From the NCBI GenBank assembly GCA_017461625.1, contig JAFTXJ010000013.1, forward strand, positions 1 to 64,000: a DNA stretch of 64,000 bases, written 5' to 3'. The position numbers and the translations under genes are program-made. Positions 14,588 through 38,816 of this stretch are shown here, in pieces. The notes under the pieces are model-generated. The model saw nothing but the letters and a program-made list of their open reading frames with translations, was not told the origin of the DNA and did no database searches. This DNA comes from Clostridia bacterium (GTDB lineage: Bacteria > Bacillota > Clostridia > Oscillospirales > Acutalibacteraceae). The stretch's first letter is position 1, and every line of letters begins with the position of its first letter.

Positions 14588-14755
14588 ATGACAGAAATTC
14601 AATATTTAAAAATGAGAATCAAAGACCTTGAAAGGGGTCTCAATAATCCATTATCAACACCTGCTGAGCAAAAGAGACAGGCCCTTGCCTTGGTCAATTA
14701 CCGTCTGGATTTAAAACGGGTATTGGAAAACAAAAGCACTAACCAAGCACATTGA
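14588..14755 (+). CDS. Small hypothetical helical protein (55 residues)
   Basis: An ATG-started frame of 55 codons in the gap between the Fe-S gene and the fibre locus. The product begins MTEIQYLKMRIKDLERGL and is predicted to be all helical and charged, like a short coiled coil. Its coding-like composition (no low-complexity run, balanced residues) supports a real gene. GGTGAT precedes the ATG by six bases. Its last 17 bases overlap the 3' end of the convergent gene at 14739. No family recognised. Confidence 0.5.
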   Translation: MTEIQYLKMRIKDLERGLNNPLSTPAEQKRQALALVNYRLDLKRVLENKSTNQAH

Positions 14756-15239
14756 CACTGATTTTGCCGTGACGCTCACCTCGGTATTCGCCATCAAGGT
14801 AGGCTCTGACGTAATAAACACAATCGTATGAACCCTTTTTCAGCTTTTTGGGAAGCTTGTCACCTGAAACAAATTGCCCCGGGGCTATCATCGGTGATGT
14901 GTAAATCAGGTTTTCCGTTTCACCGTCACCAATAATTTCATAAACCAAAAACTGCAAAGTATAGTCACACGACTGAGGATTTTCAAACATAAAGGAACCT
15001 TTTTTTTCGTCAGTTTCAAAAACCACGTTGTCATTAATTAAAAAACGTATTTCGCCCTCAGGCACTTCTTCAATATGCTCAACGCCGTCAAGCAATCCGT
15101 ACTGAGCCTTTGCCCTTGGCGTAACCAACCAGATTAAGCCGGGAGTCAGGCATTCAACAAGAATAACCGAAACCGCAAGCAAAGCGGCAACTGCCGAAAC
15201 GACTATAATTTTTTTATTCTTCAACTGTATCAACACCAA
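14739..15239 (-). CDS. Membrane-anchored protein of the fibre locus (last gene)
   Basis: About 160-166 residues with one N-terminal transmembrane helix (about 11-33) and an extracellular part of about 130 residues rich in beta strands (EIRFLINDNVVFETDEKKG). Only GTG or TTG starts are available; the TTG at 15224 or the first TTG at 15239 are both possible. It overlaps the preceding gene, whose product has the same topology and similar phrases, so the two may form a pair. No SipW-type AWF/AWY signal is present, so it probably stays membrane-bound. Function unknown. Confidence 0.65.
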   Translation of the reverse strand: MVLIQLKNKKIIVVSAVAALLAVSVILVECLTPGLIWLVTPRAKAQYGLLDGVEHIEEVPEGEIRFLINDNVVFETDEKKGSFMFENPQSCDYTLQFLVYEIIGDGETENLIYTSPMIAPGQFVSGDKLPKKLKKGSYDCVYYVRAYLDGEYRGERHGKISVNVLG

Positions 15240-15858
15240 TTTTGAGGTTTATTTTAACCGTTTGGGTACCGATTTTTTCATAGCTTTCTGAATCATAACC
15301 GTTAACAACAAGGGTAGCCTTCTGAATACCGTAAGGTACTGAGTCAAACAGTTTAACAGAACGAATTTCTTTGCCCGGTTCCAGACCGAGAGAGCGATAA
15401 ATAATTTCATTATTTTCATCAAGCAAAAATGCCACAAGCACGCAGTCATTAGTTCCTACATTGCCAAGCTCCAATAAAACAGGGTCTGTATGCTCTTCAA
15501 TTATAAGTTCTTCATTAACATAAAAATCAAATGCACCGACATTACCTTTTGCATTAACAGACTTGGCAAGTGTTTTTTGCTGAGATTGTGAAATCGATGA
15601 ATCAATTGCCACACTGTCAGGCTCGAGTCTGCCTTTAAAATCGGCATCTTTAACTGCTGACGGCAAACCGACAATTGAGCCAAAACTAAACACAACTACA
15701 GTAACAGCAACAACCGCCAACACCAAGACAACAGCGAGAATTGCTTTTTTCTTATTTAAGTTTTCTTTAAGAGATTTGATTTTGTCTCTTTTATTATTAC
15801 TGCCTGCGACAGACAAATCTATCGCAGGCGAAACTTTTTCTTTATTCTTTTTTGACAT
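15214..15858 (-). CDS. Membrane-anchored protein of the fibre locus
   Basis: About 214 residues: a basic cytoplasmic N-terminus (KDKIKSLKENLNKKK), one transmembrane helix (about 38-62), and an extracellular domain with the pattern FDFYVNEELIIEE...LLELGNVGTNDC, seen again in shortened form in the next gene. The ATG at 15858 is chosen for its AGGTGA site rather than the GTG at 15867. Placement among TasA-like proteins and signal peptidases suggests an anchor or assembly factor. No family recognised. Confidence 0.68.
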   Translation of the reverse strand: MSKKNKEKVSPAIDLSVAGSNNKRDKIKSLKENLNKKKAILAVVLVLAVVAVTVVVFSFGSIVGLPSAVKDADFKGRLEPDSVAIDSSISQSQQKTLAKSVNAKGNVGAFDFYVNEELIIEEHTDPVLLELGNVGTNDCVLVAFLLDENNEIIYRSLGLEPGKEIRSVKLFDSVPYGIQKATLVVNGYDSESYEKIGTQTVKINLKIGVDTVEE

Positions 15859-15870
15859 CGTTTTCACCTG

Positions 15871-16473
15871 TTATTCCCAAGGTAAAGTTTCAATGCCCCA
15901 AACTTGCTGATACCTGTTTATCTGAATAGATTCTACACTTACGGCAAGCTTTGCCACAGCATCTTTTGTCATTGTTTCCTGTGCAAACTTTTCACTGTTA
16001 AAGGCTGTGATAATTGACTTATCATAATCTTCAAACAGCCCTGTATCTTCGGTGTAATAAACGCAATAGTCACTATCACGATTATCATACCATCCGTCTG
16101 CAAAAGTATATGGCAGAAGAATATTCTGTGTGACAGTTCCGTCAAGCATAGTCCACTGAACACTCATCTTAACCCTTACATAAGAGTTTGCATATCCCCT
16201 GTGAATAACATTTACTCTGAGATTACCTACATAATTTTCAGCTGACGGATCAGCAGACAAAATAAACAGCCCATTTTCATCTTTCTGAAGATTGATTTTA
16301 TTGCCGCTTTCATCCTGAAGGTAAACATTTGCCTTTGTTCTGAAGCCGGCAAGGGTACCGATCTGAGTTATAGAGTTGGTGCTTGAATACCATGCCAAAG
16401 AGCCTGAAATTACGCCGATAACCGCAACAAGGCATATAATAAGAACGGCTATTTTTCTTCTGCTGTTTTTCAT
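15871..16473 (-). CDS. TasA/camelysin-like secreted protein with SipW-type signal
   Basis: A 200-residue protein whose signal peptide ends in SGSLAWYSS (about 24-32), the hallmark of the SipW-dependent signal class. The rest is beta-rich (RTKANVYLQDESGNKINLQ, YVGNLRVNVIHRGYANSYVRVKMSVQW) as in TasA-type fibre subunits. It lies 24 bases downstream of another secreted subunit gene and follows a signal peptidase gene by one gene. It is likely exported and cleaved by one of the locus's own signal peptidases. Confidence 0.72.
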   Translation of the reverse strand: MKNSRRKIAVLIICLVAVIGVISGSLAWYSSTNSITQIGTLAGFRTKANVYLQDESGNKINLQKDENGLFILSADPSAENYVGNLRVNVIHRGYANSYVRVKMSVQWTMLDGTVTQNILLPYTFADGWYDNRDSDYCVYYTEDTGLFEDYDKSIITAFNSEKFAQETMTKDAVAKLAVSVESIQINRYQQVWGIETLPWE

Positions 16474-16497
16474 GTTTCAGCCCTACCCTTTCAAAAA

Positions 16498-17145
16498 TTA
16501 TCTTACAAGTGCTCCGTCAATATCCTGAGTAGCAGTCATTGTAATATTGATTTTATAATCAACTGTTGCCCATGCAGAGTCTGCAAAGGTAAAATCGTCT
16601 ATGCTTTCATCATATTCAACCCATAACGCAACCTTAACAACCTTGCTTTCACCGGGATTTAGGCTCACGTAATAACCTGAGTTGCCATCTTCGCCAATGT
16701 TGTGATTGTTAAGTGCCTGCTCGGTCATTTCACCATTGAGAGCCTTGAGCATTGTGGCTCTAACACTGTCATCGACCATTAAATCATCTGTAAAATAAAA
16801 ATAGCGAAGACCTTTTGTTTCATATTCATTCTTAACGGTTGCATACACTCTTGCAGGCATACCGCCTTCATTTTTAATTTCAACCTCTGTGATTTCAACA
16901 ACTGAATCAAAGAGTGTTTCATTTTCATCTTCAAAAGCTGTGGCACCTTTGAATTTGATCGTGTCAGAAAGAGCATATTCACTGTTAACATCAAAGTCAG
17001 CAAAAACGAAGGTGTTCTGAGTTCCGCTGATGTTCTGACTCTGATAAGACCATGCAGTTGTAGGTGACATCAATGTAAAATAACTGCCACACATTACAAG
17101 CATCAGCACCATTACCAACGCAATAACTTTTTTAATTTTACTCAT
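16498..17145 (-). CDS. TasA/camelysin-like secreted protein
   Basis: About 215 residues. N-terminal hydrophobic signal ends near SPTTAWSYQSQ, a variant of the SipW-type AW motif. The mature part begins FVFADFDVNSEYALSD and contains VEIKNEGGMPARVYATVKN, typical of TasA-type beta sandwiches, and the C-terminal segment VKVALWVEYDES recalls the IWxEGxD motif of the proteins encoded at 34825-38058. The ATG at 17145 has AGAGGTGG upstream and overlaps the signal peptidase gene by eight bases, implying coupled synthesis of substrate and peptidase. Confidence 0.72.
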   Translation of the reverse strand: MSKIKKVIALVMVLMLVMCGSYFTLMSPTTAWSYQSQNISGTQNTFVFADFDVNSEYALSDTIKFKGATAFEDENETLFDSVVEITEVEIKNEGGMPARVYATVKNEYETKGLRYFYFTDDLMVDDSVRATMLKALNGEMTEQALNNHNIGEDGNSGYYVSLNPGESKVVKVALWVEYDESIDDFTFADSAWATVDYKINITMTATQDIDGALVR

Positions 17146-17644
17146 TTTTGCCACCTCTCTTTCTGAATTTTGAAACTAACACCGAAACGGAGATTAAAAC
17201 TATTAAAACAACCGAGGAAATAACGCTGAGTTTAACCAAATCCATTTCATTAAGTGCTATAGATAAATATCCGAGTAACGGAATGGAATACCACATCTTC
17301 CCTACAATCTGCTCACTCATTGACGGTTGCGGATCTTCGCTTTCGTTGGCATCACCCTTGGTGCGAATTGCACCTGCAACATAATCAATCGAAACAATTT
17401 TATGTGTAAAAAAGCCTGACCCGTCAGCAAATTGAACCGTTACTATGTCGCCCTCATTCAAGCTGTTAAAATCAGTTTGTTTAACAAAAACAACATCGCC
17501 CCTGTTAAGCGTCGGCGACATACTGTCAGTTAAAACAGCATAACCTCTTGCACCCGAAAAAATGTTAAAGAAAACGAAGGATACCGAAATAACTGTTACA
17601 ATAGCCAACATATTAAATAAGATATTGATAGGCTTTATTTTCAT
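17138..17644 (-). CDS. SipW-type signal peptidase I (copy 1 of 4)
   Basis: A 168-residue membrane serine protease that removes signal peptides. Helix at about 10-30, catalytic Ser in LTDSMSPTLNRGD (about 41), His of the ER/SipW class in FFTHKIVSID (about 79) rather than the usual Lys, and the conserved KGDANESEDP box. A C-terminal transmembrane helix follows (about 132-155). It is sandwiched between two TasA-like genes, its probable substrates. It is one of four such peptidases in this locus. Confidence 0.88.
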   Translation of the reverse strand: MKIKPINILFNMLAIVTVISVSFVFFNIFSGARGYAVLTDSMSPTLNRGDVVFVKQTDFNSLNEGDIVTVQFADGSGFFTHKIVSIDYVAGAIRTKGDANESEDPQPSMSEQIVGKMWYSIPLLGYLSIALNEMDLVKLSVISSVVLIVLISVSVLVSKFRKRGGKNE

Positions 17645-17647
17645 AAT

Positions 17648-18316
17648 TTATTCTACTTCTGTGGCAACCTGATATTCACCAAGGCTACTCCAACCAACAT
17701 AATCAGCCTGCTTTGCCTCAAAAATTACATTAACTGTAACTTCATTGCCTGAATACAGGCTGGCATCTATTGACTCTTTATAATAGACACTTTCAATAAT
17801 TTCAACATCTGCCACATCAGGGCTTATTGTGTATACATCATCAAGGTCTGTAATAGCTGACTTACCGTAATCCGGGCCGACATAATAATAGCATGTTCCG
17901 TCAAGTCCGTTATCAAAAGGCAACCATTGCTCAGGATTTGCAAAAACAACCTGCAAATCTTCATCTTCACTTCCTGAATACACAACATTCTTTGCAACAC
18001 CGTCAGCAAAGCTGGTATATTCAATCTTTACTCTTATCTGAGAGTCAACCGTTGAACTGTTATACATTGAAATGGATGCATTGTCACCGTCAAGCATAAC
18101 AAGATTCTGACCGGGATAAATACATGCTTTACCGTAAAAATCTTCTTCAAGGGTGTCAAGTGAAACAGCAGAAGAGCTGTCAAAGCTAACCACACCAATG
18201 GTAATTCGCTGGGCTCTTTTAACTGAAGTTACGAACCATGCGAATGAACCATTGCTTGCCATAAGACCAAGCACCACTGCAAGAGAAGTAACAAGTGCAA
18301 TTATTCTTTTTATCAT
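17648..18316 (-). CDS. TasA/camelysin-like secreted protein with SipW-type signal
   Basis: A 222-residue protein with a signal peptide ending GSFAWFVTS (about 23-31). The mature protein is acidic and beta-rich (VNVIFEAKQADYVGW near the C-terminus). Its ATG overlaps the stop of the upstream signal peptidase gene (ATGA) and it is followed by another peptidase gene three bases later. It is likely a minor fibre subunit or matrix protein. The family assignment rests on the signal motif, size and neighbours. Confidence 0.72.
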   Translation of the reverse strand: MIKRIIALVTSLAVVLGLMASNGSFAWFVTSVKRAQRITIGVVSFDSSSAVSLDTLEEDFYGKACIYPGQNLVMLDGDNASISMYNSSTVDSQIRVKIEYTSFADGVAKNVVYSGSEDEDLQVVFANPEQWLPFDNGLDGTCYYYVGPDYGKSAITDLDDVYTISPDVADVEIIESVYYKESIDASLYSGNEVTVNVIFEAKQADYVGWSSLGEYQVATEVE

Positions 18317-18837
18317 ACTGTTTCCTCCTCCCGTGAAGACTTTCGTTTTATAATAAAAATTTCAATTTCTACTGCTATCCATGCAAGGTAAGCGGCAACC
18401 ACCACTACCTTACCGATTACGGAGTTTAAAAACTCAGCAACATAACCAACCAATGGGATCGAAAAATCTACCCTGCCCTCACAAAAATAAAAGCTTGTGG
18501 GTGATGGATCTGCATCTTTATTTGCATCACCTTTGGTAGTAAACATCTGATTGTTTTTATCTATCTCAATAACTCTGTGGGTAAAGTGCTCAGTTTCATC
18601 ATCATTATGAAAAGTGAGAATATCACCGAGCTTAACCTCATCAAAAGTTATCTCTTTCGCAAAAACAAGGCTTCCTTTAGGGATCACTGCACCCATACTG
18701 CCTGTCTGAATATAATAAGTCTCATATCCGATAAGCTTCGGAATGAAAACAATCATCAGCAAAAAAGCAAGCAAACAACAGGCAACAGAGCTAATCAGAA
18801 TTTTTAGCTTTTCTTTTGCGCTTACTTTTGGGTTCAT
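18313..18837 (-). CDS. SipW-type signal peptidase I (copy 2 of 4)
   Basis: About 174 residues: helix at about 10-32, catalytic Ser in IQTGSMGAVIPKGS, His in HFTHRVIEID, KGDANKDADPSP box, and a C-terminal helix (about 133-160) ending in a basic tail. I prefer the ATG at 18837 (GGAGG 12 bases upstream) to the one at 18867, which has no ribosome site. It overlaps the end of the preceding peptidase gene by about 47 bases. Two peptidase genes in a row suggest different substrate preferences. Confidence 0.85.
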   Translation of the reverse strand: MNPKVSAKEKLKILISSVACCLLAFLLMIVFIPKLIGYETYYIQTGSMGAVIPKGSLVFAKEITFDEVKLGDILTFHNDDETEHFTHRVIEIDKNNQMFTTKGDANKDADPSPTSFYFCEGRVDFSIPLVGYVAEFLNSVIGKVVVVAAYLAWIAVEIEIFIIKRKSSREEETV

Positions 18838-19411
18838 CTGCCTGTTCTTCCTCCGTGCTGTCATCATTTTTATTGATTATAACATTTATCAAATTTACTG
18901 CTTCTAAAAATGTGATAACCACAAGAGGTATTACAATCAGAAACAAAATTATATTAGGATTTTGTAAAAAGCCTATAACCGAACCCGACATAACCCCAAG
19001 ATTCAAAACAACCTTACCGATGATTCTGCTCTCATATACGGGATACTCGTCGATGGTTTTGTTGGCATCACCTTTGGTTACAAACTGCCTTTCTCCGCCT
19101 TTAAGATAGTAAATTTCCTCTATTCGGTGGGTATTTACCATATCGGCAATCTGCCCGCCAGTGGAATAAAAGCTTATAACGTCACCTATATTAAGTTTGT
19201 CGGCAGGTACCTTTTTTGTAACAATAACGCTGCCTGTTTTATATTCAGGTTCCATCGAACCTGTTTGGATTTTCATAACACTGAAGCCCATAACGTCGGG
19301 CACTTGATTAGCTTCGGTTTTTAAAACAGATATAAAAACTGCCAAGCCAATAAGAAATATCAATGTTCCGAACACAGCGGCAACTGCCGAAAGAATCTTT
19401 TTAACCTTCAT
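18791..19411 (-). CDS. SipW-type signal peptidase I (copy 3 of 4)
   Basis: About 206 residues with the start at 19411, one base after the stop of the TasA-like gene upstream; the longer frame to 19477 would run inside that gene. N-terminal helix (about 4-24), Ser in IQTGSMEPEYKTGS, His in VNTHRIEEI, and KGDANKTIDEYPV. C-terminal helix, then a Lys/Arg/Glu-rich cytoplasmic tail of about 30 residues. The Ser-His arrangement places it in the same class as the other three. Confidence 0.86.
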   Translation of the reverse strand: MKVKKILSAVAAVFGTLIFLIGLAVFISVLKTEANQVPDVMGFSVMKIQTGSMEPEYKTGSVIVTKKVPADKLNIGDVISFYSTGGQIADMVNTHRIEEIYYLKGGERQFVTKGDANKTIDEYPVYESRIIGKVVLNLGVMSGSVIGFLQNPNIILFLIVIPLVVITFLEAVNLINVIINKNDDSTEEEQADEPKSKRKRKAKNSD

Positions 19412-19412
19412 A

Positions 19413-19994
19413 TTATCCAACTTGCTGACCCTGAAGCTTAACTTCGCCCAGTTCTGCCGCACCTTCAACAACTTCATCGCCTGTTACAACATAAACATTA
19501 TAATAAACGCTGTAATCATTATTGCCCTCTGCCTGAGAGTCTGAAATGTCATATGCAAAAACATTTGAAACTGTGTATTCTGCCATTTTTAATCCTGTTT
19601 GACTTTCAAGCTCAACACCTGTTGTGTTACAAACGATTTTATAATCAAAATAAACATACGGCAACAAATCATTGGTTGAAACAAGACCTTCAAAAGACAT
19701 TGCAAGCTTTATCGGCACGTCAGGAAAAGTCTTGACATCAATCCTATACATTTTTTTCTGACCTTCAACCATATTTTCCATTTCAAGGTCGCCTTCAAGA
19801 GCCTGGTATGTCACACCGCCATCTGTTGATTCATTGTAAGTAACAGATAAGGTAGAACCGTTAACTTTACCTGTGAACATAGACAGTGAGCCCTGATTTG
19901 TAACCGCATACCACGCAAAAGTAACAGCCACTAATGTAAGGGCAGAAGCGATGAGCAATATAAAATTTTTAACTGTGCTGAAATTTTTTTTCAT
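19413..19994 (-). CDS. TasA/camelysin-like secreted protein with SipW-type signal
   Basis: A 193-residue protein with signal peptide ending AVTFAWYAVTNQG (about 23-35). Mature part: SLSMFTGKVNGSTLSVTYNES and beta-rich sequence through YDISDSQAEGNNDYSVYYNVYVV. Good GAGGG ribosome site. It lies 30 bases downstream of the giant GLUG-repeat gene and one base upstream of signal peptidase copy 3, suggesting it is exported by that enzyme and assembled with the giant protein. Family assignment as for its neighbours. Confidence 0.74.
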   Translation of the reverse strand: MKKNFSTVKNFILLIASALTLVAVTFAWYAVTNQGSLSMFTGKVNGSTLSVTYNESTDGGVTYQALEGDLEMENMVEGQKKMYRIDVKTFPDVPIKLAMSFEGLVSTNDLLPYVYFDYKIVCNTTGVELESQTGLKMAEYTVSNVFAYDISDSQAEGNNDYSVYYNVYVVTGDEVVEGAAELGEVKLQGQQVG

Positions 19995-20024: not shown

Positions 20025-23000
20025 TTATCTTGCAAGATTCTCCCACAGGGAGGTAAGTCCCCATGGGATATCTTTTTCTACTATTGTTATCTCAAGAACA
20101 ACGCTGTCTGATTTTGTTGTTTCAACAAATGTGCCTTGAGCACCTGCATCGGTAACTTCAATTTCATTACCTGCATGGTCTTTAGCCTTAACAACGATGT
20201 CATATCCCTGTTCAAGGCTTGCATCAACATAGAAGCCGCCTGCTGTTACAAGGAGCTTATTCATCTTTGCAGGCTGAGCATCGCATGAAGTGAAAATATC
20301 GGATGTTACAACACTGTTGTCACCAAGCCTTGACTTGATAAGGACACCAACAAGAGCGCTATCCATATATTTATCACCGGACTCATTAATCAATGTGTAC
20401 TCAACGTTGGTGTTGCCCAGTGTGGCTTCAACCGTTCCCACATCGTTATAGAGTCTGTCATATGTCTTTGAAACATCACCGCAGCTGACAGTGAGTGACA
20501 TATAATCCGCATAAAGCTTTGTTCTGTTAAGCTGAGCTGACTGACCGTCAACAACGGCGCTTTCATTAGCCGACCATTTAAGTGCATAGGCTTTTCCGCC
20601 CAGCATAACCTCGGCAGGTAATGTTACTGCTTCAGAAACACCTGCACCGACCTTTACTGATTCATCAGTTTCAGACGGAGTGGTAATAATAACGCTCAAT
20701 GCTGAATTCAACTGACTGTCGGCATTTGCATTATTAACCATAGCCTTAAGATAAGGATATGTCTCCGCACTTAAACCAAATGCATCTGAAATATCTGCAC
20801 CGGAAACAAGTTCATTAGTTGTAAGCCTGTAACAGCTTTCACTGATTATATTTGAAACAGCGGTGAGATTTTCATCGTTGTTCATATATTTGTCAAAATA
20901 CAGATTTTCGTAAGCATCACCAAAGGCATAGCCTACAACACCCGCTTTAAAGCAATCACTGCCGTAAACCCTTACGCCTGCACTTATGGCACTTACACCA
21001 CCGGCAGCATAAGCATCTTTGACATCGGCATAAGCCACACCAACAAGACCACCGGCTGCTCTGAGAGCCTCGCCTTCTGCACCACCGGTGAAATCAGCTG
21101 TTACTGCTGAAGTTGAATACACACTTTCAACCTCTGCATATGCTACACCAACGAGACCACCGATACCGACTACTGATTCACCGTCAGCAACACCGGCATC
21201 TGCAACTTTAACCGAGCCTGCACTGAAGGTGTTTTTAATTTCTCTGCCGTTTGCAATACCAACAAGTCCGCCGACACCGGCAACACTGTTGTTATCGGCT
21301 GAATTTTTGATTTCAGTAACAAAAACATCAGCAAGTGATGAGCTTGTATAAATCGCACCCGAATTCATAACACCAACAAGACCGCCGACACCTGCAAGAG
21401 ATGAATCAGAAATCAAAGCATTAAGCTTACCGTTAGTATTTGAATTTGTGATAACCGCGTCTGATTTACCAATCAAACCACCGACAATATTTTCACCGTC
21501 AACGTTGATGTTAGCATAAGAATTGTTAACGGTACCGCCAAGCATTGAACCGACCACTGCACCGGCAGTTAAGCCTGAAACATAGCTTGCTTCACTGTCG
21601 TTTTCAATTCTGACGTTTTCAATAGCTGTATATTCATTAGCTACACCTGCAAGAGTACCTGTTTCAGCACAACCGGTGATATACACATTATTGAAAGTTA
21701 TGTCTTTAAACTCAGCAATATTTTCGCTGTTACCACCAACGGTTGCAAATAAGCCGGTTTCGCCCTTGGAATTATTAATTCTTACATTATTGATTGCGTA
21801 ACCGTTACCGTCGAAATCACCTGTATAACCTGTGATTGGAGCAATTGCATTCTCTTCACTGAACGAATTGGCTGCAAAATCAATATTTGCAGTGAGAATA
21901 ATCTTTGCCTGAGGATTATCAAGATAATCTTCAAATACCGAATATTTTCCGTAAGGCTCAGCAAGAGCTTTTAAATGCTTGGCAAGTGAAAGGTAAAGTG
22001 TGTTTTCTTCAAATCTCTGTGGGAGGAGGATTACTCTGCTGTAATCACCGCTACTTACCATAACATATGGCATCTCACCTGAGAAAACATCGTTATAAAC
22101 CTTATTACCTTCAATATAGAGATCATCTTCACCTGAAAGGGTGGAAGTTTTAAGTTTTACTTTATCTGTTCCGATTGAAACAGGATATGCAAAGCCGTTA
22201 ACAACATCTGAACCTTCCTTAACATCTGCCATTACGGGAACAGATGCAAGGCTTACCAATGAAACAGCGTAATCGTCTGCCATAGCTGGAGCCGGGTAAT
22301 TACCGTCGGCTGTAACCCAACCGTCAAGACCTTCGGGAAGAGTGGCGATAAGATTGCCTGCTGAAACCGAAGTAACACCCTTATCAGTTGTACCCAATGC
22401 TGTAACATCGCTGTAAACATATGACATTTCATCAGCATCAACAGCGTTAGCAGTTGCACCGGCATTAGTACCGCCGATAACTGCTTTTTCTATTGTAAGC
22501 TCACCGTTGTTTGCTCCAACGGTAATACTGTTGTCACACTTTGAAGAACCTGTTGAAAGAATATCAGAAACAGTCAATCTGCCTTCGTTGATACCAACGA
22601 TTGTACCGCCGGCAACATCAACAGTTGTTGCAGTTACGCTGTTTTCAATTGAACAATCGCCCTTTGCTACGCCAACAAGACCGCCGGCTGTTTTCTGAGA
22701 TTTAACCGTCGTCATTGAAACGCAGTTAACAACCTTTGAAGATGCCAACTCACCAACAATTGCACCGACCGCACGCTCACCAGAAACCGAACCGCCCTCA
22801 ACGGTGCAGTTAACTATACCGTTAACTGATTCACAGTAACCTGCGATACCACCTACAAAAGATGCACCCCGGATTGAGCTGAATCCGTAGCCCTGAGAAT
22901 CATCAAGGATTTCAAGATGAACATTCTTAACCTGACCCTGAGCCTTGATGTTGGCAAACAAACCAACATAATCTTCCTCACTGTTTATATAAAGATTTTT

Positions 23001-29939: not shown

Positions 29940-29999
29940 CAAACTAACCTCCACGATGACTAAACTGTGATTAATTATCTGCTACTGCTGCTCAGCAGA

Positions 30000-32234
30000 T
30001 TACTGCTCATCAGCCTTCTTAGCCTTATCCTTGGCTAATTTAGCTGCCTTTTCTCTTGCAATTTTTTCTTTTTCCTTTGCTTTGGCTTTTGCGATTCGCT
30101 CTTTTTCAAGCATTTTTGCTTTTTCTCTTGCGATACGCTCTTTTTCCTTTGCCTTTTCTTTTGCGATACGCTCTTTTTCCTTTGCCTTTTCTTTTGCGAT
30201 GCGTTCTTTTTCTATCTGCTTCGCCTTTTCTTTAGCAATACGTTCTTTTTCTTTAGCTTTTGCCTTTTCTATGCGCTCTTTCTCAAGCTGTTTTGCCTTT
30301 TCACGAGCAATTCGCTCACGCTCTTTAGCCTTTTCTTTAGCAATTTTGTCTTTTTCAGCCTGAATTTCTTTTTCCTTTGCCAAACGTTCTTTTTCTTTAG
30401 CTTTTGCTTTTCCAAGACGTTCCTGCTCAAGAGCTCTGGCTTTTTCTTTAGCAAGGCGTTCTTTCTCTTTTGCCTTTTCTTTTGCGATTCGCTCTTTTTC
30501 AGCCTGAGCTGCTTTTTCACGGGCAATACGCTCTTTTTCTTTGGCTCTTTCTTTGTCAAGACGTTCTTGCTGAAGTGCTTTCGCCTTTTCACGAGCAAGG
30601 CGTTCTTTCTCTTTTGCCTTTTCTTTTGCGATTCGCTCTTTTTCGGCCTGAGCTGCTTTTTCACGGGCAATACGCTCTTTTTCTTTGGCTTTTTCTTTAG
30701 CAATGCGCTCTCTTTCAAGCTGTTTTGCCTTTTCACGCTTAGCTTTTTCTTTCTCTTTGCGGGCACGTTCAAGCTGCTCTGCCTTTTCTTTGGCAAGGCG
30801 AGCCCTTTCCTGCTCCTTGGCAATACGGGCCTGCTCTTTTTCTTTTGCAATCTGAGCAAGACGTTCTTCTCTTTCCTTGACCAGACGTGCTCTCTCTTTT
30901 TCTTTGCGGGCACGTTCTTTGGCAAGGGCAACCTCTTTCTCTTTTTGAGCTTTGAGGCGAGCCTTCTCTTTTGCAATACGCTCTTTCTCTTTTGCCTTTT
31001 CTTTTGCGATGCGAGCTTTTTCTCGTGCTATGCGGCGACGCTCCATCTCTTTTTCATGAGCGATTTTTGCCTTGATTTTATCTTCGATAGCCTTCTTACG
31101 TGCATTTTCCTGAGCCAACGCACGGTCGATAGCTTCTTTGATCTTCTTTTCACCGGCAATCTTCTTTTTGCTGATACGCTTAACTTCATCAACAAAGATT
31201 TTTCTGATTTCGATTTCGTTCATATCGTAATCGATAACCAACTCTTCTGCAAGACGTTTGAGCATCTTGGGTTTAATCTTTCTTGATTTAGCTTTTTTGG
31301 CCAATGCATCCTGTGAAACGGTGTTGTTTTTAAGGAGCATATAGTTAGTTGAAATCATTTTGTTAAGCTGCTCTTTATATTCGTCACTTACCATTTCATT
31401 TGACTCATGAGCAATAATCTCATAACCAACGTCGCGATAAGACTGAATGAACTGCCACAGCTTAAGACATGCTCTGAAGTTAGGGTTTTTCTGAATAGCA
31501 TTTGTTCTCATAATCGGTGGGCGAACAGGCGCACAACCGTGAAGCTCTTTCATGAAGCCCGAATGAGCATATTCGTTGATAATTTTCTTAATTCTTTCAA
31601 TTCTTTGGAAAGCAGAAGCATTTTCACCGTCAATGTTAGCATTATCTTCTAAATCATTACCGCCGGACTGAGCCGAAACCTCTAACTGATAGTGAATCTT
31701 CTCTTTGCCGCGAGTAACATCACTTTCCATTTTTAATGATGCCATATTCTCATCATCAGAAAGGTTGAAAAGAACATTGTATCTGACATCAATAAATCTT
31801 ATAAGGTTTTGCATAAGGGTGTAAACAAAGCGGTTTTCATAAACCTCAAAGCTCTCTTCACGAAAAACATTAAGAATTTCGTTAGGAGTAACAGTGTCAC
31901 CCTCAACCTTTGCGATCATGTTTGTATGCTGAGCAAGGTGGCGGACCGATTCTGCCGTAATTTTTTTCGCTCTTTCAATGGGAACAATTTCTTCTTCCTG
32001 AACGATAAACTTACGGGGAACACGGATAATATTGTCAAGAGGAATAATGCAGGCCTCAATCTCTTCAACCCATGTTAAATCTATTTTCTTTTCGAAATAT
32101 CTGTTAAACAGTGAGTAACTGGTCTTACCTCGGTCGATAATATCATCCATTGTTTCATAGAACTGATTATCAGTGGTAAGGGCAGCCATACTGTCTTTAT
32201 ATTCCAAAAATAATTCAAGATATGATTTATCCAT
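30000..32234 (-). CDS. DUF2357/McrC-like protein with long charged helix replacing the nuclease
   Basis: A 744-residue cytoplasmic protein in two parts. Residues 1-305 resemble the DUF2357 region of McrC-type partners of McrB ATPases: FEVYENRFVYTLMQNL (about 129-144) and MRTNAIQKNPNFRACLKLW (about 242-260). In McrC relatives a PD-(D/E)xK nuclease follows; none is visible here. Instead residues 355-744 are a nearly pure Lys/Arg/Glu/Ala repeat (units like AKEKERIAREKAK), expected to be a coiled coil or single alpha helix of some 50 nm. It sits 39 bases downstream of the McrB-like gene. Family assignment is by eye and moderately sure. Confidence 0.65.
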   Translation of the reverse strand: MDKSYLELFLEYKDSMAALTTDNQFYETMDDIIDRGKTSYSLFNRYFEKKIDLTWVEEIEACIIPLDNIIRVPRKFIVQEEEIVPIERAKKITAESVRHLAQHTNMIAKVEGDTVTPNEILNVFREESFEVYENRFVYTLMQNLIRFIDVRYNVLFNLSDDENMASLKMESDVTRGKEKIHYQLEVSAQSGGNDLEDNANIDGENASAFQRIERIKKIINEYAHSGFMKELHGCAPVRPPIMRTNAIQKNPNFRACLKLWQFIQSYRDVGYEIIAHESNEMVSDEYKEQLNKMISTNYMLLKNNTVSQDALAKKAKSRKIKPKMLKRLAEELVIDYDMNEIEIRKIFVDEVKRISKKKIAGEKKIKEAIDRALAQENARKKAIEDKIKAKIAHEKEMERRRIAREKARIAKEKAKEKERIAKEKARLKAQKEKEVALAKERARKEKERARLVKEREERLAQIAKEKEQARIAKEQERARLAKEKAEQLERARKEKEKAKREKAKQLERERIAKEKAKEKERIAREKAAQAEKERIAKEKAKEKERLAREKAKALQQERLDKERAKEKERIAREKAAQAEKERIAKEKAKEKERLAKEKARALEQERLGKAKAKEKERLAKEKEIQAEKDKIAKEKAKERERIAREKAKQLEKERIEKAKAKEKERIAKEKAKQIEKERIAKEKAKEKERIAKEKAKEKERIAREKAKMLEKERIAKAKAKEKEKIAREKAAKLAKDKAKKADEQ
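30451..30690 (-). repeat. Near-identical internal 96-bp repeat (144-bp period) in the charged-helix region
   Basis: 30451-30546 and 30595-30690 are nearly identical (one A/G difference noticed by eye), spaced 144 bases apart, inside the larger array of related units between about 30030 and 31030. The array encodes KEKERIAKEKAK-type repeats. Such in-frame repeats (144 = 48 codons) can change number by slippage or recombination and so change the length of the helix. Confidence 0.75.
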
Positions 32235-32273: not shown

Positions 32274-33821
32274 TTACATAAGCTTCTGGAGTCTGAGAAG
32301 ATATTCTTTAGATTCCATCATGTTTGACTTACCGAAATGCTTATTAAGGTAAGTGATAAGTCCGTCAATTTCATCACGGATAAATGAAAGGTTAAGGCTT
32401 TCAAATTTACGAAGAATCTTGTGGCAAAGAACGAAGTCAATACCGTCGATTTCTGTTCCACCGCAGCCAACATATGCAGGAACAAACTCCTTAAGCTGCT
32501 TAACAATACGGTTACCGAAAGCAAGACGGAAATGCTCAATAACATAGTCATCAAGTTCCTCAAGCTTGCGAAGGTTTTCTTCTGAAACCTTGTATTTTTC
32601 CTGGCATTCTTTGAACATACCTTCAAGATGCTTATAGCTCAAAGGAAGCCATTCAGTGTAAGGAGCATCAAATGCTTTACCCTTACTGTTAATGTCAATA
32701 GGAATAGCACGGTCATAAACCTTATCTGAAACAGCGAATGTAGAGTCGTCGTTGTTGATTGTGCCGATATACCACATATTTTCGGGAAGTTTGAGTTTAC
32801 CGTCGAAGAGATGTTTTGGGTCTGTTGGCCAAACACTGGGAACAAGGGATACAACCCATTCTTCTCTGGTAGGCATTTCGAGGATTGAAAGAAGCTCTGC
32901 GAAGTAATACTCAACACGAGCGATGTTCATTTCGTCGAGAACAGTGATATAAATTTCTTCCTTGTATGTAGCTTCATACATCTTTTTGAGAACTTCAGTT
33001 TCGTTGAATCTCTTTGTAAATTCGTTGAAGTAACCGAAAATTTCAGTACGGTCACGCCATGAAGGCTGAACTGATGCGATGATAGCAGGGTTCCTTAAGA
33101 ACTTACCCCAAGCGTAAGCAAGTGAGGTTTTACCTGTACCTGAAATACCCTGAAGGATGATAAGTCTTGTTGTTGCAAATGAAGCAATAAAAAGACGGAT
33201 AAGCTTTGGTTCATAATAAAGATGAAGCTGTGAGCAAGCGAAGTTGCGGAATCTGTCACAAATTTCAGGAAGAGTAATTTCATTATCAAACTCAGGTGCA
33301 ACATAGTTTTCAATTTCAATGTCAACCTGAGTACATTTATAGAAACGGCTGTAGTCATCAGCAGTTTTATCAACTTCGTCAGACTTTTCCTCTTCCTCTT
33401 TCTTTTCTTCGTACTCTTCATAGGGGCTTTCTCCGGGTTTGAGACCAAGCTGAGAAACCTTCATAGCAAGGATTCTCTCTTTTTCTGAAGAAAGCTTGAT
33501 GATTTCACGGTTAAGGTTGCCCACTTCGTTGAGAAGCTCTTCCTGGTCAACAATTGTTTTGCGAACTCTTATGTATTTTTTAACAAGAATTACAACAAGA
33601 ACAACAATCACAGCAAGAATAGCTACTGTGGCAACCACAGTAAGAATTGCAATAATCCAATCTACTGCAGTGAAATTTGCTGAATTAGCCTTGAAAATTG
33701 ATATGTAAGCAGGAATGTTGAACATATTGACTATGCCCATTCCGATACCTTTGAAAATACCGAACAATCCCTGAACAAAGAACTGATTCAGAAATTCTGA
33801 TATAAAGGTTGTAACTGTCAT
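32274..33821 (-). CDS. Membrane-tethered McrB-like AAA+ ATPase
   Basis: About 515 residues. An N-terminal hydrophobic region plus a clear transmembrane helix (about 53-83), an acidic coiled linker (about 90-160), then an AAA+ domain of McrB type: Walker A GISGTGKTS (about 225-233), Walker B ITVLDEMN continuing IARVEYYFAELLSILE (about 291-315), sensor-like GTINNDDST (about 353-361) and SDKVYDRA with the arginine finger. The DEMN-AR-E-YF-LLS-LE string is diagnostic for the McrB group, whose members use GTP or ATP. Membrane anchoring is unusual for McrB. Its partner is encoded next. ATG at 33821 chosen for its GAGGGTG site. Confidence 0.8.
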   Translation of the reverse strand: MTVTTFISEFLNQFFVQGLFGIFKGIGMGIVNMFNIPAYISIFKANSANFTAVDWIIAILTVVATVAILAVIVVLVVILVKKYIRVRKTIVDQEELLNEVGNLNREIIKLSSEKERILAMKVSQLGLKPGESPYEEYEEKKEEEEKSDEVDKTADDYSRFYKCTQVDIEIENYVAPEFDNEITLPEICDRFRNFACSQLHLYYEPKLIRLFIASFATTRLIILQGISGTGKTSLAYAWGKFLRNPAIIASVQPSWRDRTEIFGYFNEFTKRFNETEVLKKMYEATYKEEIYITVLDEMNIARVEYYFAELLSILEMPTREEWVVSLVPSVWPTDPKHLFDGKLKLPENMWYIGTINNDDSTFAVSDKVYDRAIPIDINSKGKAFDAPYTEWLPLSYKHLEGMFKECQEKYKVSEENLRKLEELDDYVIEHFRLAFGNRIVKQLKEFVPAYVGCGGTEIDGIDFVLCHKILRKFESLNLSFIRDEIDGLITYLNKHFGKSNMMESKEYLLRLQKLM

Positions 33822-33874
33822 TTGGGTCACCCTCTTATAATAATTGGTTTATATAAATATGTGAATGTTATATG

Positions 33875-34603
33875 TTATTTGTTTTCTGAACCGTCCTCGG
33901 AACCTGCGGCTTTCTTCTCAGCCTCCTGCTGAGCAAGATACTCTTCAATAGCTCTGCGCTTAACATCATCAGAAATGTTTTCTGCTTTTGATGCCATAAA
34001 CATAGCAATAAGCTTATAAACCTGCCAGATAAAGAAGAGAGCCAATGGGATAATTACGCAAATCATAAAGCCGAGCTGACTCTGGAGGAAGTCAAGTGCA
34101 TTACCGAAGCCACTTATAGTAAGACCTTTAACGTAATCACCTGTTGCTTCATCAATGCCTGCACCAACCTGCTTTGCAACAACGTCATCCGGGTAAACCT
34201 TCTGGTTATCTTCTGTTTCCATAGCGTCACCCTTGGTAACGTAATAGTGGATAGAACCATCATTATAATACTGAACATCAAGAATTCTATGGGTATTGAA
34301 ACCTTTTACGGTGTTACCTGCACCATCCTGCATAAGGGTGTAGAAGGTGATAACGTCACCGATTTTAAGCTCTGCTTCAGCATCTTTAACCTCTTTTGCG
34401 ATAATGAGGTCACCCTTGCCGATGGTAGGGCTCATTGAATCTGTCTGAACTGAAAATGGTGTGTAGCCTAATACATTACCGATACCTGTTTCTGAGCTTT
34501 TTGAAGTAAAGGTCATAACTGTTATGGAAATAGCCACAACAATAAGAATAACCAACAATACATCTGAAATAACTCCTAAAATACTTTTACCTTTCTGTTC
34601 CAT
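33875..34603 (-). CDS. SipW-type signal peptidase I (copy 4 of 4)
   Basis: A 242-residue signal peptidase: helix at about 8-30, catalytic Ser in VQTDSMSPTIGKGD (about 57), His in FNTHRILDV (about 102), KGDAMETEDNQ box, an insertion before the C-terminal helix (about 180-202), and a charged cytoplasmic tail rich in Glu/Ala/Lys. It follows the two major TasA-like genes and precedes the ATPase pair, so it is the likely peptidase of the major subunits. Good GAGGTGA ribosome site. Confidence 0.88.
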   Translation of the reverse strand: MEQKGKSILGVISDVLLVILIVVAISITVMTFTSKSSETGIGNVLGYTPFSVQTDSMSPTIGKGDLIIAKEVKDAEAELKIGDVITFYTLMQDGAGNTVKGFNTHRILDVQYYNDGSIHYYVTKGDAMETEDNQKVYPDDVVAKQVGAGIDEATGDYVKGLTISGFGNALDFLQSQLGFMICVIIPLALFFIWQVYKLIAMFMASKAENISDDVKRRAIEEYLAQQEAEKKAAGSEDGSENK

Positions 34604-34824: not shown

Positions 34825-35778
34825 TTAGTCAATTGTAAACTTAAGGTTAGCTGTAAGAGCAGCACCTGCAACTGAGTTCAAGCAGTCAACGTCGTTACCT
34901 TCAATCCAGATATATACTCTAACCTTTGTGATACCTGCTTTGAGGTTGAAAACTTTAGATGTAGTAGCTGACTGGTCAGTAAGCTGTGTACCCTGCATAG
35001 CACCTACAACAGCAGTGTTGGTGATTATACCATTTGATGTTGTAACTGCGTTACCGTTGTTTGTGCTGACTAAGCCTTTTGTTTCAACAGCACCTGCAGC
35101 AATACCTGCAGCAGCAGCATCATCTGAACGCTTTAATGAATCTACTTCATAAATAACGTTGTTTGTACCTGCTGTGAAAGAGTTAAGAGCTGTTGCTGTA
35201 GCAGCATCAGTACCGATTGCTACTGTACCAAGGGGAGTGAAAGCTACTCTGAGAGCTGAAAGAACTTTTGAACCGCTGTTATCAGTGAATGTTGAACCAC
35301 TGAAGTAAACGGGTGTTGCACTTGCAACCTTGAAGAAAAGGTCGAAAGCGATGAGACCTGCAGCATCCTGGCTGGCCTTGCTCTGAGTTACAGCTGTAAT
35401 CTTAGCCATAGCTGAGTCATCAAGAGTAGCCTTGAAGAAGTTTGCATAACCTGTTGAACTTGCTTTTGCAAAGTTTGATGAAACAGGAATAAGGTCTGCG
35501 GGATAAAGGTTGTTGTTTCCTTCATAAGCGTCATAACGGCTTGTTGTTGCGTCGTCATTGTCAAAAATCTGGTCAACTGTAAGGCTTGCTGTCCATGCTG
35601 ATGCATTAGCTGAAATCTGGATACCTTCAGGAGATGAAACTGTGAGGTCCATTGACTCAACAGAAGCTTCTTTACTCATGGAGAACCAAGCGAACGTTGA
35701 AGATGTGAGAACGATAGCAGAAACCATAAGCATAGCAATCGCTGACACAAACGCACGTTTTTTGATTGTCTTTTTCAT
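34825..35778 (-). CDS. TasA-like major secreted protein, paralogue B
   Basis: About 317 residues. The signal peptide is of the SipW class (AFVSAIAMLMVSAIVLTSS then TFAWFSMSKEA). The mature protein starts with ESMDLTVSSPEGIQISANAS and is rich in Ala/Thr/Ser. The C-terminus carries VRVYIWIEGNDVDCLN, shared with the paralogue at 36130 and, more distantly, the anchor at 37270. ATG at 35778 has GGAGG inside a small hairpin; the longer frame to 35838 reads into the leader. Paralogue A matches it along the whole length, so they arose by duplication. Probably a main fibre subunit. Confidence 0.82.
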   Translation of the reverse strand: MKKTIKKRAFVSAIAMLMVSAIVLTSSTFAWFSMSKEASVESMDLTVSSPEGIQISANASAWTASLTVDQIFDNDDATTSRYDAYEGNNNLYPADLIPVSSNFAKASSTGYANFFKATLDDSAMAKITAVTQSKASQDAAGLIAFDLFFKVASATPVYFSGSTFTDNSGSKVLSALRVAFTPLGTVAIGTDAATATALNSFTAGTNNVIYEVDSLKRSDDAAAAGIAAGAVETKGLVSTNNGNAVTTSNGIITNTAVVGAMQGTQLTDQSATTSKVFNLKAGITKVRVYIWIEGNDVDCLNSVAGAALTANLKFTID

Positions 35779-35937
35779 ATCTTTACCTCCATAAAGATTT
35801 CGCATGCCTTGGCGACCGTTAACCCGTCGCCAAATCATTCGTTTAATTTATATCCTGTGTGCTGAAAAAATTTAAATTGGAATCAAGGAATTTTTGCCCG
35901 GGATCAGTAAAAGGTTGCTCCTTTTCACTCCTCCCTT
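35779..35937 (-). promoter_or_regulatory. Conserved structured leader B
   Basis: Shares three elements with the leader at 37114-37269: the block CACACAGGATATAAATT (35861-35845), a hairpin TTGGCGA/TCGCCAA (35833-35809), and a start-site hairpin ATCTTTA-TGGAGG-TAAAGAT (35798-35779) with the ribosome site in its loop. In the other leader the middle hairpin reads CAA/TTG where this one reads CGA/TCG, a compensatory change. The TATAAA in the block may be a -10 element, but no standard -35 is seen. Confidence 0.6.
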
Positions 35938-36053
35938 GCAGCCTCGCCGCTGTTACCAAGTTTTCAACAAGCTATAAACCAATTGAAAACTCAGTCGCCC
36001 TTAAGAATATTATCAACACACTTGGGATCTTTCACATCGAACCGGATGACTAT
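35938..36053 (-). pseudogene. Remnant of a duplicated copy of the membrane-anchor gene (37270-38058)
   Basis: On the minus strand this stretch aligns along its length with the last ~39 codons of the gene at 37270-38058: residues read VIRFDVKDPKCVDNILKGD where the intact gene has AIWFEGDDPECVDDILEGE, then a stop. Small deletions shift the frame and the 5' part is gone. It sits upstream of leader B just as the intact gene sits upstream of leader A, so a block of anchor end, leader and TasA-like gene was duplicated and this copy decayed. A hairpin ATGACTATCA/TGATAGTGTCAT (about 36046-36081) borders it. Confidence 0.8.
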
Positions 36054-36129
36054 CAATAAAAATGATAGTGTCATTTCGGTTTTTTGTATATATTTTGTGT
36101 TAAATTATATCTTGTTTAATCTATAAAAA

Positions 36130-37113
36130 TTATTCAATTGTGAATCTGAGGTCAGCTACAAGAGAAGAACCTGCAATTGAGTTCAAGCAGTCAACATCCT
36201 GACCTTCCATCCAGATGTAAACTCTAACCTTTGAGATACCTACAGGAAGCTCAAAATATTTGTCTGTATCAACACTCTGATCCGTAACTGATGTACCGCT
36301 AATATTTCCACCTGCATTAAGAACACCGTTTGAAACAGCAACACCTGTACCTGTTGAATTAAGATACTTTGTTGCCTGTACTCCTGCGGCAATACCATAA
36401 GCTGTAGCACCAGCTGATCTTGTTAATGAATCAACCTCGTAAGAAACAGTGTTGCCGGCTACGAAATCTTTCTTTGCGATTGCATCTGTAACAGCAGTTG
36501 ATGAAGATGGATCTGTTACTGTTCCTAAAGGAGTAAAGGCAACTCTGAGAGCAGAGAGAGCATTCTGATCAGTTCCGTCTTCTGCATTCACATCTTCAAA
36601 AGTTGATGTGTTGAAATAAATCTTCTGCACTGCATCCGGATTTTCATTATCAACTTTGAAGAAAATATCAAAAGCAATAAAGCCTTCAGGATTTTCTTTG
36701 TCCTGAGTAATTGCTCTTATATCAGCAGTTGTTGAACCGCCACTGATAGGAGCCTTAAAGAAATCTGCGAAACCATTAGTAGCATTTTCAAATGCAGATG
36801 ATACCGGAGTTAAAACGTCCGGATAAATGTTGTTGTTGTTTTCATAAGCAGCAAAATGATCAGGAACATAAGCATCATCATCTCTAAATCCTTCACCAAA
36901 GAAATCTTCACCTTCAAGGCTTGCAGTCCATGTAGATGCGTTTGCTGAAATCTGAATACCATCAATTGACTGAACTGTAAGGTTCATTGCTTCAACATCG
37001 GTTGCGTCAGCCATGGTGAACCATGCGAATGTTGAAGATGTGAGAGCGATAGATGTGAGCATAAGCATAATCATCGTTACCACAAATGCGCGTTTTTTTA
37101 ATGTTACTTTCAT
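36130..37113 (-). CDS. TasA-like major secreted protein, paralogue A
   Basis: A 327-residue protein with SipW-class signal (AFVVTMIMLMLTSIALTSS then TFAWFTMADAT). The mature start EAMNLTVQSIDGIQISANAS and the C-terminal VRVYIWMEGQDVDCLN match paralogue B closely. It is more acidic around residues 65-85. The start codon follows GGAGG in a hairpin loop. As the first secreted subunit gene of the locus it is probably strongly expressed. The function as fibre subunit is inferred from the TasA/camelysin-type signal, size and linked SipW-type peptidases. Confidence 0.82.
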   Translation of the reverse strand: MKVTLKKRAFVVTMIMLMLTSIALTSSTFAWFTMADATDVEAMNLTVQSIDGIQISANASTWTASLEGEDFFGEGFRDDDAYVPDHFAAYENNNNIYPDVLTPVSSAFENATNGFADFFKAPISGGSTTADIRAITQDKENPEGFIAFDIFFKVDNENPDAVQKIYFNTSTFEDVNAEDGTDQNALSALRVAFTPLGTVTDPSSSTAVTDAIAKKDFVAGNTVSYEVDSLTRSAGATAYGIAAGVQATKYLNSTGTGVAVSNGVLNAGGNISGTSVTDQSVDTDKYFELPVGISKVRVYIWMEGQDVDCLNSIAGSSLVADLRFTIE

Positions 37114-37269
37114 ATCTTTACCTCCATAAAGATTGTTGTATGGCCTGGCAACTGATAACCCATTGCCAAAACATTTACTAAATTTATATCCTGTGTGTTG
37201 GAAAAATGAATTGAAAAAATAGAAAAGTTTTGCTTAATGTCAGTCAAAGGTTAATCCTTTTCACTGCTT
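37114..37269 (-). promoter_or_regulatory. Conserved structured leader A
   Basis: Contains a hairpin CAGTGAAAAGG/CCTTTGACTG just after the anchor stop codon (37265-37237), the conserved block CACACAGGATATAAATT (37197-37181), a hairpin TGGCAA/TTGCCA (37168-37146) and ATCTTTA-TGGAGG-TAAAGAT (37133-37114) with the ribosome site in the loop. The same elements recur before paralogue B with compensatory base changes, pointing to conserved RNA structure. It may be a regulatory or mRNA-stabilising leader; I could not match it to a known riboswitch. Confidence 0.6.
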
Positions 37270-38058
37270 TTATGCAGACTCTCCACTATCATCAAGTGTT
37301 TCGATGAGCTGTAAGTCCATCGAAAACTTGACTTCCCCCTCAAGAATATCATCAACACACTCAGGATCGTCACCTTCGAACCAGATAGCTACGGTAAATC
37401 TGTCCACAGCTCCTGCTTCGAAATTTTCGTTAGAAAAGTTTCCTACATGTCTGTTACTAACGAAGTTTTTATCAGCGTACTGCTCAAGCACGCTTGAGCT
37501 ACCTAGTGCAGGCTTTGCATAAACCTCTGACTCGTCGTTGTGTGTTACCATAACACGGACCGCTTCATCTGCGCCCTGAGTAGCACTTTCAACATTGAGC
37601 TTTGCAACATAGCCTGCTTTTTCGGTGCCTGTATTTTTAACATAGAACGAATATGTAAAGTAGAACATTCCGTCTTCCGTAAGGAAATTATGAGAACCGT
37701 CATAATCGTTTATATCCGGCGGAAGAAGAGTGTATGTTCCCTCCCTCATGTTTTCAAATGCACTGCCTTCAAGTATTCTTGCAGGATTTTCAAAATCAGG
37801 GGTTTCACTGATTGCGATACCCGCATTGAAAGCGTCTGCATTGGTGGAAACAGTGAAGTTACCGTTGCTTATATATGTTGTGCAAGCAAACAAGCCAAAA
37901 AGGAAAAGCAATAATATAATAAGTATAATTGTCAGTATTCTGATAAGCGCTTCTCTTTTATTGAGCTTTTTGGAGCTTGTTTTTACCGAATACTTGCCCA
38001 TATTGTCATTTCCAGCAGCAGGTGTCGGCTGTGCATCATTTTTCTTTTTCTTAGCCAA
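37270..38058 (-). CDS. Membrane-anchored TasA-related protein
   Basis: A 262-residue protein with a basic, Lys-rich cytoplasmic N-terminus, one strong transmembrane helix (about 38-60) and an extracellular domain starting ISNGNFTVSTNADAFNAGI. Its C-terminus contains VAIWFEGDDPECVDD, the same motif found in the two major subunits, so all three share a domain. Because it keeps a full transmembrane helix without the AWF signal it may anchor or nucleate the fibre at the membrane. The apparent start is TTG with AGGAG 9-10 bases upstream. Confidence 0.72.
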   Translation of the reverse strand: MAKKKKNDAQPTPAAGNDNMGKYSVKTSSKKLNKREALIRILTIILIILLLFLFGLFACTTYISNGNFTVSTNADAFNAGIAISETPDFENPARILEGSAFENMREGTYTLLPPDINDYDGSHNFLTEDGMFYFTYSFYVKNTGTEKAGYVAKLNVESATQGADEAVRVMVTHNDESEVYAKPALGSSSVLEQYADKNFVSNRHVGNFSNENFEAGAVDRFTVAIWFEGDDPECVDDILEGEVKFSMDLQLIETLDDSGESA

Positions 38059-38075
38059 TGCAACTCGCTCCTTTC

Positions 38076-38816
38076 TTACACAATTGATTTCTCATTTCCG
38101 GGTTTACCGTAAAACGGACCTTTGAGCTGGTCAACACCCATCTTTTTAAGAAGCTCTGCCTTTTCAGCTGAGTCGATGCCATCAACCCTTGTTTCAACTT
38201 CAATCTTTTTAGCAAAATCAATAAGACCCTGAATCATATTCTGAGTGCGTTCGCTTTCAAGAATGTCTTCTATGAGTGAAGCATGAATTCCGATATAGTC
38301 AACATCGTAATGGCTGAGGTTACTTAAAGATGTATATTCAAGACCTAAATCGTCAATTGAAACCTTAAAACCTAACTCTCTGAGCTCTTTGATATTGGCA
38401 AGAATCTGATCTTTATCAGCTTCAAGTATACTCTGAGTAATGTTAAGGCAAAATCTGTCAGGCTTTATTTCGTGTTTGTTAAGGATTTTCATCACCTGTG
38501 CAACAAAGTTCTTTTTGCAGATGTGCTTAACAGAAATCCATACTATAAATGTATTAACGTCTGCCTCTCTTGCCTCGCAACGCTTAATAACGTCACAGCA
38601 CTCCTCAATAGCCCAGAGACCAAGCTGACAAATCTGACTTGACTTTTCGGCAATGGGAATAAACAGTTCAGGGAGAATAACACCCACGGTCTTGTCATTG
38701 ATTCTCATGGAAATCTCATAATCTATAGCCATATTAAGGTGAATATCAAACACCGGCTGGAAAGAAAGCTCAATTGGTCTGAGCCTACTTTTTCCGTTGG
38801 ATTTTTTTTGTTCCAT
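38076..38816 (-). CDS. Degenerate EAL-domain protein, predicted not to hydrolyse c-di-GMP
   Basis: A 246-residue stand-alone EAL-fold protein. Fold landmarks are present: QPVFDIH, LPELFIPIAEKS, SIDDLGLEYTSLSNL and the final LKGPFYGKP. Catalytic positions are altered: EAL reads EIS, the Asn of VNxS is Ile (VWISVKH), the LExTE motif is LNITQ, KxD is GIH, and AEGVE is RVDGID. The Asp pair of DDFG is kept. It is therefore probably a c-di-GMP receptor or a protein-interaction module rather than a phosphodiesterase. As first gene of the fibre locus it likely regulates it. GAGGG precedes the ATG. Confidence 0.83.
   Translation of the reverse strand: MEQKKSNGKSRLRPIELSFQPVFDIHLNMAIDYEISMRINDKTVGVILPELFIPIAEKSSQICQLGLWAIEECCDVIKRCEAREADVNTFIVWISVKHICKKNFVAQVMKILNKHEIKPDRFCLNITQSILEADKDQILANIKELRELGFKVSIDDLGLEYTSLSNLSHYDVDYIGIHASLIEDILESERTQNMIQGLIDFAKKIEVETRVDGIDSAEKAELLKKMGVDQLKGPFYGKPGNEKSIV

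Follow-up and report, generated by a model that had tools for sequence, protein, structure and literature searches.

A 64,000-nucleotide stretch of a Clostridia genome (contig JAFTXJ010000013.1, positions 1 to 64,000, hereafter the window; source genome of 1.85 Mb in 21 contigs) carries a block of secretion and cell-surface genes that includes a pair related to the McrBC restriction system, a membrane-anchored McrB-like nucleoside triphosphatase (NTPase) and a DUF2357 protein. Open reading frame (ORF) translation of the window yielded an uninterrupted run of 17 minus-strand ORFs between 38816 and 14739, which agrees with the single direction claimed by an original prediction made from the sequence alone, but not with its count of 15 intact genes. 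The small gaps or overlaps that it described were found at 13 of the 16 junctions (overlapping or ≤45 bp apart); the other three, of 156, 291 and 221 bp, flank the two large subunit genes, so gene spacing does not establish one transcript. From the head, the block encodes a degenerate EAL-domain protein of 246 residues (38076..38816), a membrane-anchored subunit, mem37.3 (37270..38058), two fibre-subunit-like proteins, tasA36.1 (36130..37113) and tasA34.8 (34825..35838), a SipW-type signal peptidase adjoining the NTPase (33875..34603), the NTPase of 518 residues (32274..33830), the DUF2357 protein of 744 residues (30000..32234) and a secreted GLUG-like repeat protein of 3309 residues (20025..29954). 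The tail after this giant gene comprises three more SipW-type peptidases (18791..19477, 18313..18867 and 17138..17644), four secreted proteins with AW-type signals (AWY, 19413..19994; AWF, 17648..18316; AWS, 16498..17154; AWY, 15871..16473) and two membrane-anchored proteins, one with an orthologue in stretch L159 (15214..15867) and one that is the last gene of the conserved block (14739..15239); together with the product of 37270, these two are the three membrane anchors that had been predicted. We hold the identities of these parts with high confidence.

The McrB-like ATPase with a membrane helix was borne out: in a PDB sequence search with a profile of 12 NTPase homologues, all three matches at E ≤ 0.01 were McrB (best 1.3e-7), and a hydrophobic stretch begins at about residue 51, followed by basic residues, with a similar stretch in 12 aligned rows, so that by the positive-inside rule the AAA+ domain would be cytosolic. 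The N-terminal segment gave only weak FtsL matches (PF19579, E 0.021; NF053549, E 0.0067). Because Walker A, Walker B and N-N-D-D (N359-N360-D361-D362) are invariant in all 12 chosen rows of alignment A1 (alignment A2 holds 47 rows), the NTPase is very likely active, judging from its motifs. N-N-D-D is the N-x-D form described for one McrB branch in the available part of PMC11090510; forms such as NMDE prevail among 33 more distant relatives. In PADLOC, the closest family is PDC-M26A (1.6e-36). In a tree built without L001, L003, L030, short rows and identical rows, the 87 close NTPases occupy one side of a branch with support 96/99, a group that was delimited by score and that faces long branches on the opposite side. 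Among the 33 more distant relatives (excluding L017, which gave no ORF), a transmembrane (TM) segment precedes the domain in one (L014), 11 have a DUF2357-like neighbour, and none has a SipW-type peptidase in stretches reaching mostly ~1–1.5 kb to each side; five control stretches of 7–20 kb held none either. At L044:1511-12298, a soluble N-x-D McrB-like NTPase (PDC-M26A) and its DUF2357-like partner lie beside MkoA-like, MkoB-like and PD-T4-6-like genes, and this locus looks like a separate defence island.

The DUF2357 protein alone had no Pfam match, and a PDB sequence search with it returned two chance-level rows only. Its assignment comes from its family and fold: Pfam DUF2357 matched 40 of the 66 proteins in the alignment of its family (A4, 66 of 89 listed proteins, with L049, whose frame is split, and L044 not among the 89), and its fold matches McrC of both E. 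coli and T. gammatolerans. The huge charged helix attributed to it corresponds to residues 331–744, a charged repeat tail of 414 residues (~62 nm if one helix) that starts after about residue 330, in place of the PD-(D/E)xK nuclease. The hydrophobic periodicity of the tail peaks at 0.27 (3.6 residues) with no heptad sign, which leaves a coiled coil and a single charged helix equally likely. No nuclease was detected by Pfam among the 17 window proteins or in the 25 most frequent of 57 Pfam families across the 66 DUF2357 members, and the Mrr_cat family had no match in the source genome. The protein has only 362–381 residues, with no charged tail, in 13 loci. Inside the window gene, tandem repeats of 33, 72 and 144 bp occupy 30045-30788, and its length could vary between strains through them.

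TIGR02228 gave nine matches in the source genome, of which only those at 17138, 18313, 18791 and 33875 (the last with 65.2 bits) exceed the cut-off of 51.85. Signal peptidases of the endoplasmic reticulum/SipW type use Ser-His, and both residues were read by eye in these four, as the original prediction had it; at 64.8–79.8 bits they do not reach the Bacillus SipW equivalog NF046067 (190 bits). An A-W-[FYS] signal is present in six proteins (15871, 16498, 17648, 19413, 34825 and 36130), against five or six predicted. Across the whole subunit family, A-W-F occurs in 75 of 77 members, the exceptions being L062:11521 (S-W-F) and L069:738 (a contig-cut fragment). The subunits also share the signature W-x-E-G-x-D-x-x-C, seen in tasA36.1 and again at the C-terminus of mem37.3, which represents an uncleaved anchored subunit family and has a basic N-tail and no AW site; a lipobox was rejected as a general feature of the anchored subunits, since no more than 33 of 73 have a Cys close to where the TM segment ends. 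The predicted likeness to TasA did not show in sequence: no TasA/camelysin Pfam match appeared in 37 subunits at E ≤ 0.1 (alignment A5, 37 of 39 listed, leaving out L035:4211 with AWF and L078:15703 with AWM), the NCBIfam SipW-dependent signal model TIGR04088 was found in five of the 37 (best 0.0053), and a PDB sequence search with the subunits returned no match. They may tentatively be termed TasA-like by fold rank at low Z and by signal type. The two subunit genes at 34825-37113 are 52% identical, and one gene stands there in the close loci L048 and L049, whose NTPase genes are 98–99% identical to the window's; either a tandem copy arose here or a gene was lost there.

For the giant protein, the predicted length of ~3300 residues and its repeats were recovered, the latter by eye and as 25 motifs of the form G-[GAVS]-[ILVA]-[AVI]-G, where shuffled sequences gave 1.7 on average and 5 at most, but Pfam GLUG was not matched at E ≤ 1. 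Pfam Peptidase_M26_N was (3.2e-10, four stretches), and NCBIfam had nothing at E ≤ 0.1 for this protein or its L159 counterpart.

Comparison of genomes showed the block to be conserved. G063, of the same genus, carries (in stretch L159) the giant gene followed by nine orthologues in the order of the window tail, and the tail of G087 (stretch L158) is similar. Ninety-four stretches with a close NTPase were assembled from the best 80 of at least 495 relatives, 13 family genomes and the window, not all of them independent (L030 and L031 share one contig; L073 and L115 repeat L032 and L034). A DUF2357 gene lies ≤2 kb downstream of the NTPase on the same strand in all 90 stretches with more than 600 bp downstream, with a gap of ≤150 bp in 78 of the 90 (median 49 bp); the two genes are separated by the nearest peptidase downstream in L074 and L081-L084. 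SipW-type peptidases were found in 93 of the 94, and the sole miss, L085, begins at the NTPase. From the order, sampled to escape the bias of the best 80, 30 of 295 genomes matched the NTPase at E ≤ 1e-60; 25 of the 30 had the full-type NTPase, each with a SipW-type peptidase and DUF2357, among them G533, G651, G661 and G770, which repeat L067, L065, L068 and L066, and four others also examined before. A contig boundary truncates the NTPase of G540. Of 120 genomes sampled from the family, 13 had the full-length NTPase, all 13 with an over-cut-off peptidase, and 47 of the 107 other genomes had such a peptidase without a full-length NTPase; among 398 genomes sampled from the phylum, the source genome alone had a full-length NTPase, with weak relatives (≤126 bits) in 49 others. 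SipW systems are thus common without the pair, whereas SipW accompanied the full-type pair at all loci except one that a contig end truncates. The co-occurrence that the prediction had proposed to look for is a conserved one, and the pair is not a chance neighbour of the SipW/subunit block.

This set was said to match no described system, a claim that did not stand, for it already bears a name. As outlined in the available text of PMC11090510 (Bell et al. 2024), CoCoPALM has an McrB GTPase with the N-x-D motif, to which a domain made of an FtsB-like TM segment and a coiled coil is fused; genes of the signal-peptidase family, presumed there to act in pilus assembly, accompany it, and the McrB and McrC homologues usually both carry coiled coils. 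Fuller treatment was deferred there, and no later or fuller account was found in the open-access collection searched. Because most features that could be compared are present, the FtsB likeness and the coiled coils being the uncertain ones, including an N-x-D McrB with N-terminal TM segment, a McrC homologue and signal-peptidase-family genes (the last absent in a SipW-free sister group described below), the locus is, on its sequence, of the CoCoPALM type. The few sentences of that text name no cargo, whereas cargo subunits are described here; new besides are the nuclease loss, the A-W-F and WxEGxDxxC subunits, the uncleaved anchored family, the recurrent EAL genes and the sister group. CoCoNuT type IV restriction systems, as portrayed in the same available text, share the N-x-D motif, McrC homologues often lacking an active nuclease and long coiled or charged helices, but the window NTPase carries a membrane anchor. 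Relative to McrBC of E. coli and T. gammatolerans, the pair retains the AAA+ core by sequence (E. coli McrB) and the DUF2357 fold of both McrCs, and differs by N-x-D in place of N-x-x-D, by the missing nuclease and by the N-terminal membrane segment. The B. subtilis tapA-sipW-tasA and C. perfringens sipW-bsaABCRSD operons likewise join a SipW-type peptidase to dedicated secreted fibre subunits, but the operon genes named in the available parts of PMC9674648 and PMC7395162 include no NTPase pair, and the window differs further by the number of its peptidases, four, and by a subunit signature that is new.

The EAL protein at the head (PF00563, 3.5e-50) is degenerate, as predicted, retaining three of the nine canonical catalytic and cyclic diguanylate (c-di-GMP) residues; 34 relatives keep 0–5 of the nine (alignment A7 holds 16 of 36 EAL proteins). 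EAL-like genes occur in 52 of the 94 stretches, 13 uncertain ones included, and are missing from some loci in which almost 10 kb of upstream sequence is present. In eight loci (L162, L163, L166, L167, L168, L175, L180 and L040), an intact EAL membrane protein of 746–796 residues with all nine residues follows shortly after the downstream peptidase, and L040 and L175 combine a dead EAL at the head with this intact one at the tail; such an arrangement hints at c-di-GMP control of the system. The 13 loci with the short DUF2357 protein also hold a conserved ~350-residue protein close upstream of the NTPase (L123:8938-9990 and the 12 other loci); Pfam EAL matched two of the five proteins that were scanned (2.6e-4 and 0.045), and the hhalign probability was 0.7%; it is perhaps a far-decayed EAL domain.

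We propose, with about even confidence, that the locus encodes a membrane platform, powered by NTP, on which a TasA-type fibre is built, with the pair acting in assembly. Subunits would exit through Sec, be cut by the SipW-type peptidases after the A of A-W-F and polymerise by strand exchange into a TasA-type fibre, whose base would be the uncleaved membrane subunit (37270). The NTPase would assemble as a ring at the inner membrane face, where the DUF2357 stalk would activate it in the manner of McrBC, and its nucleotide hydrolysis might organise or gate assembly at the base subunit. The machine could be placed or regulated by the long tail of the DUF2357 protein and by the degenerate EAL protein.

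Not every genome shows the linkage to SipW. Five of the 30 order genomes (G637, G585, G650, G671 and G763) have membrane NTPases with no SipW nearby, so that the pair occurring apart from SipW, which the original prediction had named as evidence against itself, was encountered in part, with 25 of the 30 linked; an obligate association was thereby ruled out. G637 and G585 encode a membrane NTPase, DUF2357, a second membrane NTPase, a smaller protein that is secreted or lies in the membrane, and a large anchored surface protein; G650 has the same order split over two contigs, and G671 has one NTPase, no DUF2357 and then similar surface genes. The anchored surface proteins of this SipW-free sister block (L181, L182, L183, L184 and L185) measure 1085–1292 residues. 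No SipW-type peptidase lies in the read stretches of these four genomes; genome-wide, G671 and G650 lack TIGR02228 matches at E ≤ 0.001, and G637 and G585 have three each, all on other contigs. G763 holds a divergent pair near a contig end with no peptidase in 12 kb, and G611 has the full type plus a second-type NTPase at a contig end. In a quick tree of a chosen subset, from which L185 and L188 dropped out because the searched Walker pattern was missing, the SipW-linked, SipW-free membrane (without G763) and soluble groups each took one side of a branch with Shimodaira–Hasegawa-like approximate likelihood ratio test values of 92, 80 and 10, the last leaving the soluble-group split unsupported. 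These data suggest that what stays constant is the membrane anchor together with surface proteins, SipW being the commoner partner.

The pair might instead position the export site or sense envelope state and leave assembly undriven, which we consider unlikely, though the best of the rivals. PcdA of S. aureus, a relative of McrB that has left restriction for work at the envelope, positions division according to the available text of PMC10602043; EVE domains are present in it and a linked McrC-NTD partner is absent, whereas the window keeps the partner and anchors the NTPase in the membrane. That anchor with its weak FtsL-like matches, the span of the charged tail and the recurrence of EAL genes all suit a placement device, but neither tail nor EAL gene is universal. 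A role in defence, in which the McrBC-related pair would continue to detect foreign nucleic acid and the surface proteins would serve as effector or barrier, for example by blocking phage adsorption, appears quite improbable. The PADLOC family nearest to the NTPase, the soluble relative of L044 beside MkoA-like and PD-T4-6-like genes, and the discussion of N-x-D relatives as restriction-type systems in the available text of PMC11090510 speak for it; against it stand the nuclease search, although the neighbours of relatives were not scanned systematically, the 13 loci with the shortened DUF2357 protein and a block full of secretion and surface genes. Least credible of all is a passenger with an unrelated envelope job that travels with a common SipW operon, for although a SipW-free sister group exists, the linkage (25/25 and 93/94) and the SipW-linked group on one side of a branch argue otherwise.

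Within the platform proposal, it is possible, and we advance it tentatively, that a restriction machine became a membrane-anchored, nucleotide-driven motor for a donor-strand fibre, its ring acting on the uncleaved starter subunit; McrB would have gained a membrane anchor, and McrC would have lost its nuclease and kept the activating stalk. We know of no energy-driven step in the TasA-type/donor-strand fibre class, and such a motor would supply one; the proposal, if true, would mean that a defence enzyme was recruited to build a cell-surface structure. CoCoPALM, named in 2024 and left for later, becomes a testable question with the anatomy given here, which points to a candidate base subunit, to the residues A-W-F and W-x-E-G-x-D-x-x-C, and to the SipW-free sister group as a comparison.

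As for transcription signals, promoter-like sites in 14400-34000 were at shuffle level (48 versus 41.7, sd 6.0), and terminator-like sites in the same interval were above it (28 versus a shuffle mean of 16.9, sd 4.8).

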